Source: Candidatus Aenigmatarchaeota archaeon (lineage in GTDB: Archaea; Aenigmatarchaeota; Aenigmatarchaeia; QMZS01). Taken from it: DNA of 46,926 bases. Made by a program: the position numbers and the translations under genes. The DNA is taken from NCBI GenBank assembly GCA_030600555.1, contig JAUVLW010000005.1, positions 1-46,926 of the forward strand. The letters run 5' to 3'. Of this stretch, positions 23,230-24,531 are shown one piece after another. Below the pieces are notes generated by a model. It made no database searches and was not told where the DNA came from. It was given only the letters and a program-made list of their open reading frames with translations. Position 1 is the first letter of the stretch. Every line of letters starts with the position of its first letter.

Positions 23230-23847
23230 ATGGATTGTTTATTCTGCAAGATTGTAAAGGGTGAAATACCAACACTTAAAGTCTATGAAAATTCCTCTGT
23301 ATTATCATTCCTTGATGTTAATCCCTGCTCTCTTGGGCATACAATCATAATTCCAAAGAAACATTACCAGAATATTGAAGATATTCCTGAAGAAGAATTA
23401 AATGAATTATTCTCAACAATAACCAAACTTGTAAAAGTAATTCCCGGGGTTGTTGGAACAACAGACTGCAATATTGGGTTAAATAATGGCAAACTTGCGG
23501 GACAGGAAGTTCCTCATGTTCATTTCCACATAATCCCAAGATTTGAAGGAGATAAAGGATCATCAATTCAGGGGCTAGTGAGAATGGAAGTTGACAAGCA
23601 AAAACTCCCTGAACTCGCGGAAAAAATCAAAAATGAAATTGAGAACAATCCTGATGGAAAGAAAACAACTGAAACAAAGAAAGAAACAACTGAAAATAAA
23701 CCGCAGGAAGAAAAAGACTCCGACTCTTCAAACAAGGAAAAAGAAGAACAACCAACAAAAAGCCCTGAAAGAGAATGGCAGGAATTTGATATGGAACTGC
23801 AAAATACACCGCCTGATTATTCTGAAGCAAGAAAAGAGAATTATTAA
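23230..23847 (+). CDS. HIT family protein with a charged low-complexity C-terminal tail
   Basis: CLFCKIVKGEIP; HVHFHIIPRF histidine triad; tail rich in K/E/T/P/S. Confidence 0.92.
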   Translation: MDCLFCKIVKGEIPTLKVYENSSVLSFLDVNPCSLGHTIIIPKKHYQNIEDIPEEELNELFSTITKLVKVIPGVVGTTDCNIGLNNGKLAGQEVPHVHFHIIPRFEGDKGSSIQGLVRMEVDKQKLPELAEKIKNEIENNPDGKKTTETKKETTENKPQEEKDSDSSNKEKEEQPTKSPEREWQEFDMELQNTPPDYSEARKENY

Positions 23848-23917: not shown

Positions 23918-24072
23918 GTCGGGGTGGCTTAGTGGCTAAAGCGCTGCGCTCATAATTGATGAGCTAAGAGAGAAATCGATGATTTAGTGCTGGGAAACGC
24001 AGAGATCGAGGGTACATAAGTCCTTCAAAAATAAACTTGGGACAATGCCTCAATCAAATCCCTCCCCCGACA
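23918..24072 (+). tRNA. tRNA-Met(CAU), elongator-like, with two introns (23955-23996 and 24014-24053)
   Basis: Acceptor GTCGGGG/CCCCGAC perfect; D-arm GCTT/AAGC; anticodon stem CTGCG/CGCAG with CAT at 23951-23953; T-stem GAGGG/CCCTC. Removing the two segments gives a 73-nt cloverleaf with loop CTCATAA and T-loop TTCAAAT. No encoded CCA. Confidence 0.85.
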
Positions 24073-24105
24073 CTAAACTTAATGCATTTAAAAAGTGTCT
24101 ATATT

Positions 24106-24531
24106 ATGACAAACGGGAAGCAAAATTTTTCAAAAATTGACAACATAATTAAAAAGGACAGCCACTTGCTCCGTAAACGAAAATTAACTTTTGGTCAGAA
24201 AGCATCTGACAGATTAACAAGATTCTGCGGTTCCTGGACTTTTATAATCTTCTTATTTATTTTTATTGGTATCTGGATGAGTATTAACTTATATGGAATA
24301 TTTGCTAAATGGGACCCTTATCCATTTATTTTGCTTAACTTCGTTCTTTCATGTCTCGCGGCTATAGAAGCGCCAATCATACTTATGAGTCAAAACAGGG
24401 AAGAAGAAAAATCAAAACTAAAAATTGAACGAGATTATCTAATAGATAAAAAATCAGAGAGAGAAATTGAAGATATTCAAAAAGATTTGGATGAAATAAA
24501 GAAACTTCTGAAAAACATAAAAAAACAATGA
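24106..24531 (+). CDS. DUF1003 family membrane protein
   Basis: Start taken at MTNGKQNF (24106), because the annotated ORF start (24037) lies inside the tRNA gene. LTFGQKASDRLTRFCGSWTFIIFLFIFIGIWMSIN...DPYPFILLNFVLSCLAAIEAPIILMSQNR matches DUF1003. Confidence 0.88.
   Translation: MTNGKQNFSKIDNIIKKDSHLLRKRKLTFGQKASDRLTRFCGSWTFIIFLFIFIGIWMSINLYGIFAKWDPYPFILLNFVLSCLAAIEAPIILMSQNREEEKSKLKIERDYLIDKKSEREIEDIQKDLDEIKKLLKNIKKQ

Follow-up and report, generated by a model that had tools for sequence, protein, structure and literature searches.

T-arm introns, tRNA genes with several introns, intron transposition and very intron-rich tRNA sets are already known in Crenarchaeota (PMC4090602, PMC4033280, PMC8450103). 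Thermoproteales carry a mean of 0.84 introns per tRNA gene, with the highest load in P. calidifontis (71 introns in 46 genes; PMC8450103), and the T-loop site 54/55 is absent from the site list of PMC4090602, a list that closes in "etc." For the Asgard Atabeyarchaeia and Freyarchaeia, those portions of PMC11291895 on which we draw give introns in 92-95% of tRNA genes, many of them non-canonical, with over half multi-intron. As for the enzymes, the alpha4 and alpha'2 types of splicing endonuclease (EndA) are considered strict and the (alpha-beta)2 and epsilon2 types broad (PMC4090602, PMC6379350), and PMC6379350 places the M. jannaschii enzyme among those of narrow specificity. Our search of the open literature for tRNA introns in Aenigmarchaeota/Aenigmatarchaeota or DPANN, with subscription papers outside its scope, returned no report of T-arm introns in Aenigmatarchaeota.

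The window (the whole stretch of DNA analyzed, 46,926 nt) is contig C10 of an 815-kb metagenome-assembled genome (MAG) comprising 34 contigs and 82% complete. Its elongator tRNA-Met(CAU) gene and the flanking genes are laid out as follows.

23230-23847: HIT-family gene, upstream neighbor of the tRNA-Met gene
23918-24072, plus strand: elongator tRNA-Met(CAU) gene with two introns
23918-23954, plus strand: exon 1, positions 1-37 (5' side of the acceptor, D-arm, 5' half of the anticodon arm)
23955-23996, plus strand: intron 1, 42 nt, at the canonical site 37/38, with a CTCA/TGGG central helix and bulges TA^A and AA^A (^ marks the predicted cut)
23997-24013, plus strand: exon 2, positions 38-54 (3' half of the anticodon arm, variable loop, 5' strand of the T-stem, T54)
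24008-24011, plus strand: 5' strand of the central helix of intron 2, exon GAGG, positions 49-52
24014-24053, plus strand: intron 2, 40 nt, in the T-loop at 54/55, with inner helices CAT/ATG and GTCC/GGAC
24048-24051, plus strand: 3' strand of the central helix of intron 2, intron CCTC, followed by the bulge AA^T
24054-24072, plus strand: exon 3, positions 55-73 (rest of the T-loop, 3' strand of the T-stem, 3' side of the acceptor, A73)
about 24100-24531: DUF1003 gene, downstream neighbor of the tRNA-Met gene

Joining exons 23918-23954, 23997-24013 and 24054-24072 yields a 73-nt sequence, GTCGGGGTGGCTTAGTGGCTAAAGCGCTGCGCTCATAACGCAGAGATCGAGGGTTCAAATCCCTCCCCCGACA, in which all stems are paired (acceptor 7/7, D 4/4, anticodon 5/5, T-stem 5/5), the T-loop reads TTCAAAT and the last base is A73, no CCA being encoded. 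ARAGORN calls the spliced form as tRNA-Met(cat) and makes no call on the genomic form or on a form that keeps only the T-loop intron. A preliminary description made from the DNA alone had given the coordinates of both introns and the 73-nt cloverleaf, and these turned out to be exact. Both introns meet the bulge-helix-bulge (BHB) criterion, namely a 4-bp helix and two 3-nt bulges, each cut after its second base, with a standard tRNA restored. At 37/38, exon bases 32-35 pair with the intron; the CTCA/TGGG helix that had been suggested there is present at 23949-23952 and 23991-23994, with one G.U pair. At 54/55, where the 5' bulge is GT^A, the anticipated pairing of GAGG with CCTC and of CAT (24015-24017) with ATG (24045-24047) arises unprompted in minimum-free-energy folds, the central helix appearing both in the whole precursor (z = -2.1) and in the T-arm piece alone (z = -2.3). 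In the mature tRNA the same GAGG has an alternative partner, exon CCCTC. The outer helix of a strict BHB is missing at 54/55 because the 5' strand of the T-stem is already occupied in the central helix, and the BHB at this site is therefore of the relaxed type. A 53/54 register for this intron was considered and ruled out, since it would give A54 and a helix with only 1/4 pairs.

Neither default ARAGORN nor Rfam at its cut-off finds any tRNA across the window. With a parser tolerant of introns at 37/38 and in the D- and T-loops, the tRNA-Met locus scores 30.7; nothing reaches 24 in the remainder of the window on either strand or in 20 Markov-shuffled windows. The failure of Rfam to reach its cut-off at the locus is what would be expected of a decayed or silent pseudogene, with another intact elongator tRNA-Met serving the cell, and a truncated tRNA-Val copy elsewhere in the genome demonstrates that pseudogenes do occur. 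The exon stems of the tRNA-Met gene are nevertheless perfect and conserved in relatives, while compensatory changes are found within its introns. A second intact elongator tRNA-Met, which the preliminary description had named as a refuting observation, was not found in this 82%-complete genome, whose other CAU gene is the initiator (L047); the incompleteness of the MAG limits what this absence can say and leaves the pseudogene explanation some room. Furthermore, the same kind of insert is present in 30 of the 31 recovered tRNA genes, so that the whole set cannot be pseudogenes. We regard decay of this locus as very improbable and conclude, with a probability of roughly 0.9, that it is a working elongator gene of Aenigmatarchaeota (DPANN) in which both introns form BHBs, EndA cuts and RtcB joins; cutting, ligation and expression are inferred here without RNA data.

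The assignment to Aenigmatarchaeota, a phylum placed in the kingdom Nanobdellati (DPANN), is consistent with the DUF1003 protein, whose closest named relatives lie in Candidatus Aenigmatarchaeota, with 85-95% identity in the MAGs B56_G9, CSMAG_2581 and RS_11_5. A T-loop intron was found in the elongator tRNA-Met of nine other genomes of the phylum, and in the closest relatives of the window's genome it lies at 54/55. Five of these (G001, G004, G006, LH_S4, and LH_S6) carry it at 54/55 with the same helix, two (G002 and G003) have an intron at 53/54, the register being ambiguous in G002, and the remaining two (G007 and G010) have T-loop introns as well. In two genomes of another family (G012 and G037) the T-loop is uninterrupted and the sole intron lies at 37/38, which independently demonstrates that the T-loop segment is an insertion. 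In G007 the central helix is GTGG/CCAC in place of GAGG/CCTC. Across nine Met and Phe precursors and seven proposed pairs, pairing was standard in 92% of cells, compared with 38-59% when the 3' partners were slid by 1-3 columns and 74% in shuffles; both-sided changes occupied 10 cells vs. 2.9 in shuffles. Taken together, orthologue presence and absence and this covariation support the two-intron tRNA-Met(CAU) with a 54/55 T-loop intron and BHB junctions, as originally proposed. Gain or loss is also apparent for tRNA-Ile(GAU), which is intact in G002, G003 and G004 and carries an insert of 100 nt in the window's genome and of 49 nt in G006; such close species pairs with and without the intron provide material for studying intron gain.

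In the absence of splicing data it could still be argued that the T-loop insert is retained, the functional tRNA having a T-arm that is expanded or fragmented; some organellar tRNAs lack arms (PMC4033280). This we consider the least probable of the alternatives: exon joining repeatedly restores a consensus T-loop across the genes, covariation links exon and intron bases where the cuts are predicted, and the inserts range from 12 to over 150 nt in length within one gene set. Splicing at the BHBs remains the preferred reading of the T-loop inserts.

All genomes used were MAGs, and the tRNA sets of the relatives were sampled and are incomplete. For the window's genome, the Rfam tRNA model reported 8 loci over its cut-off, while at least 31 tRNA genes exist. 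Seventeen of these were recovered with R1 (a tRNA-body model in which the T-arm is not required) together with the intron-tolerant parser, nine by explicit exon matching and five via a conserved intron block, for a total of 31. All but one, tRNA-Arg(CCU), contain a T-loop intron. The 31 genes hold 59 introns (1.9 per gene), distributed among T-loops (31), D-arms (15), and 37/38 (13); when the five genes found through the intron motif are excluded, 45 introns remain in 26 genes (1.7 per gene). The value of 1.9 is approximate because the sample is incomplete and those last five genes were found by the motif itself. Since nearly every gene recovered from this genome and its relatives has a T-loop insert, standard finders miss most tRNAs of these archaea, and the tRNA counts used for judging such MAGs are far too low. 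RNase P, tRNase Z and the enzymes that modify the T-loop all recognize the part of the tRNA that is interrupted here, so that splicing probably has to precede the remaining maturation.

Several further observations concern this gene set. The genome's own copy of tRNA-Ile(UAU) (L049) apparently has two introns in one T-loop, separated by the six-base exon TTCAAA; AUA is apparently read by tRNA-Ile(UAU) (L049, L083, and L067), making an agmatidine-type tRNA-Ile(CAU) unnecessary. Two near-identical tRNA-Leu genes, L017 (G000:C12:12618) and L009 (G000:C9:5277), differ in their anticodon (UAG in one, AAG in the other), and the A34 of the AAG copy, odd for an archaeal tRNA-Leu, raises the question of a mutated copy or an assembly error. 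The truncated tRNA-Val(CAC) (L011, G000:C22:3703-3797) lies about 0.7 kb from the intact copy and looks as if the stretch separating its 37/38 intron from its T-loop intron had been lost. Directly before position 1, TTAT or TTTAT is found in nearly all parsed tRNA genes having upstream sequence (L001-L019, L053, L237, L243, and L010), with tRNA-Arg(UCU), preceded by AAT, as an exception; this element is possibly a start-site signal. In G002 and G003, several contigs stop no more than about 150 bases from a tRNA gene (e.g., L074, L078, and L079), and repeated intron sequences perhaps break assemblies near these genes.

Across families of the class, T-loop introns occupy three sites, 53/54, 54/55, and 59/60, each in BHB register. 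Register statistics were compiled from 61 introns at 59/60 (several families), 42 other T-loop introns and 41 introns at 37/38. At 59/60, 75% of the introns pair fully with exon bases 54-57 at the canonical offset, vs. 0-3% at neighboring offsets and 1.4% in the rest of the introns, and position 57 covaries with its intron partner as purine with pyrimidine (A57 with T, 29; G57 with C, 14, or T, 6; Fisher p = 2.6e-6). Of the 20 introns at 53/54, 16 form all four pairs with bases 48-51 (3.0 with introns permuted). Of the 22 at 54/55, 11 do so with bases 49-52 (3.7 permuted) and 18 reach three pairs or more, the Asp and Gly introns making merely 2-3 of the 4. In the alternative register, no full helix was formed in either the 53/54 or the 54/55 group. 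The 37/38 introns of the same genomes show full helices in 46% at offset 2 and in 0-2% elsewhere, and in every class most introns end in AA (3' bulge AA^). These p-values are indicative only, because orthologues are not independent and inflate the counts. In terms of geometry, the 59/60 site mirrors 37/38: in each case a 5-bp stem closes a 7-base loop that is split between its sixth and seventh bases, with the first four loop bases supplying one strand of the central helix and the stem supplying the outer helix. The T-stem provides the outer helix at 59/60; 54/55 and 53/54 lack one. Inner helices are enriched yet incomplete. The shared geometry would explain how T-arm introns might be handled by an ordinary EndA and how introns could pass from one of the sites to the other.

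Eleven introns of the window's genome form one sequence family, ten of them at 59/60 and one at 37/38 of tRNA-Arg(UCU), and G010 has a 59/60 family of its own that starts with GGGAAC. On sequence similarity alone, introns appear to have moved between 37/38 and 59/60. The tRNA-His(GUG) gene (L240, G000:C17:23116-23209) has three introns; a block of 29 identical bases is common to the ones at 37/38 and 59/60, one of which may have been copied from the other within the gene. A further copy of the 59/60 family, GCAACCCTTT...GGTCTGCACCCC (L245, G000:C3:18885-18901), immediately follows a protein gene's stop codon and is not part of a tRNA.

Such a family, spread over many tRNA genes, present also at 37/38 and once outside a tRNA, might be taken for group I or II introns (ribozymes) or for mobile DNA of another kind, not spliced by EndA, and archaeal group I introns exist, including one in Aenigmarchaeota rRNA (PMC6125680). 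No group I or II match was obtained, however, with Rfam returning only tRNA (14 loci); inserts are as short as 12-16 nt, and the junctions lie in BHB register with exon-intron covariation. We therefore give this explanation very little credence. The T-loop inserts may be mobile as DNA or RNA, without bearing on the route of their removal. Integrases that target tRNA genes commonly use the tRNA 3' half. T-loop introns are located in that 3' half, and they could be spliced as described and yet be kept mainly for the protection gained by breaking the attachment site of integrating elements; a comparable function has been suggested in Sulfolobus, where tRNA introns interrupt viral attB sites (reviewed in PMC4090602). 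However, short inserts are found as well as long ones, and the same pattern would follow if mobile introns spread neutrally; this protective role, which is conjectural, seems to us unlikely, though it cannot be dismissed.

The genome encodes both the splicing endonuclease and the RtcB ligase, the latter being present in 11 of 11 genomes searched.

G000:C30:30794-31066: EndA
G000:C30:22302-23606: RtcB

EndA combines PF02778 and PF01974 (the N-terminal and catalytic domains) in a single 290-aa protein, which meets the alpha4 gene criterion, and is nearest to the M. jannaschii alpha4 enzyme and the catalytic subunit of Nanoarchaeum. No second subunit was found: each of seven genomes of the genus gave one PF01974 match at E values up to 10, with the caveat that MAGs are incomplete and that a divergent subunit is possible. 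The preliminary description had pointed to the endonuclease type as a check for relaxed BHB specificity. Judged by sequence, the only EndA found is single-gene and alpha4-like, a type considered strict rather than relaxed, and enzyme data are lacking. The stretch from the aligned Tyr to the aligned His contains a basic insertion, RGVKLKRGPKS, which is shared with Nanoarchaeum and absent in M. jannaschii. It occurs across the class, including G017, where Rfam finds 40 tRNAs, and the insertion alone thus cannot explain the T-loop introns. The N-terminal extension of EndA (L032:928-1272) has roughly 115 residues, of which 38 are Lys and 21 Glu; its length varies in the genus, and the G002 protein has 197 aa. 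An RNase P RNA candidate (G000:C30:14265-14528) scores 53.7 bits against an Rfam cut-off of 84, and scores are low in most relatives of the family, in which this RNA may be unusual. Loss of RNase P as in Nanoarchaeum, which TTAT right before the tRNAs had suggested, is unlikely given this candidate.

Intron 1 of tRNA-Met has a feature of a different kind. It contains a conserved ATGAGC, the complement of exon GCTCAT (positions 31-36), followed by TTGA and a GATGA/AATGA box, and the fifth base upstream of TTGA faces C34. Guide, D' and C' boxes with this placement of C34 are found in L058, L059, L060, L062, L063, and L066, with a degenerate D' in the window's copy; a box C/D-like element thus occupies this intron in relatives. 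Judged by these motifs, the intron resembles a putative box C/D guide for Cm34; the Nanoarchaeum tRNA-Met intron has been proposed as a box C/D RNA, without a target (PMC3491384). In relatives, intron 1 carries at its 3' end a CTGA that was dropped as a D box: it overlaps the BHB strand (TGAG with CTCA) and is thus not independent evidence for box C/D.

In the model that we propose, each intron of the precursor would fold into a BHB with the exons. The end of intron 1 would find its partner in anticodon-loop bases 32-35, that of intron 2 in T-stem bases 49-52. Cleavage by EndA would fall between the second and third bases of each 3-nt bulge, leaving the exons for RtcB to ligate. Gene structure, geometry, covariation, gain and loss, shared intron sequences and the presence of EndA and RtcB genes are established, while cutting, ligation, expression and the mechanism of intron spread are inferred without RNA or enzyme data. 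Beyond the single locus, one intron family would spread between 59/60 and 37/38 via the shared geometry; D-arm and 37/38 introns often accompany a T-loop intron in the same tRNA gene. A broader hypothesis, for which we see the odds as even, holds that the T-arm is a second standard splice site in Aenigmatarchaeota, 59/60 resembling 37/38 so closely that a single-gene, alpha4-type EndA handles both, which led to one mobile intron family in nearly all tRNA genes and to further sites at 53/54 and 54/55. If true, this would go against the rule by which only (alpha-beta)2 or epsilon2 enzymes can deal with non-canonical introns. The proposed link between EndA type and intron position becomes directly testable in Aenigmatarchaeota.

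Among known systems, the M. jannaschii alpha4 EndA (PDB 1A79) is the best sequence match and likewise consists of one gene with N-terminal and catalytic domains, from which the enzyme of the window's genome differs by a 6-residue basic insertion (Tyr-His) and a Lys-rich N-terminal extension. Nanoarchaeum equitans is also a member of DPANN with disrupted tRNAs and an elongator tRNA-Met intron (PMC3491384), and its EndA catalytic subunit shares the basic insertion. However, its tRNAs are split, its EndA has two subunits and RNase P is absent (PMC3491384), whereas the Aenigmatarchaeota genome has cis-encoded tRNAs, one EndA gene as far as found and an RNase P RNA candidate. Atabeyarchaeia and Freyarchaeia are similarly intron-rich but belong to another phylum, and no preference for the T-loop or T-arm is named in the portions of PMC11291895 used here. 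What is new, inasmuch as the open literature yielded no earlier report, is that T-loop introns are nearly universal in a phylum of DPANN whose EndA is alpha4-like. The Thermoproteales share with this genome several introns per tRNA gene (at most three), D- and T-arm sites including 53/54 and 59/60, and similar introns across different tRNAs (PMC4090602, PMC4033280, PMC8450103). The Aenigmatarchaeota genome, in contrast, belongs to an unrelated phylum with a single-gene EndA, has 1.9 introns per recovered gene vs. the Thermoproteales mean given above (PMC8450103), and uses the T-loop as its dominant intron site.
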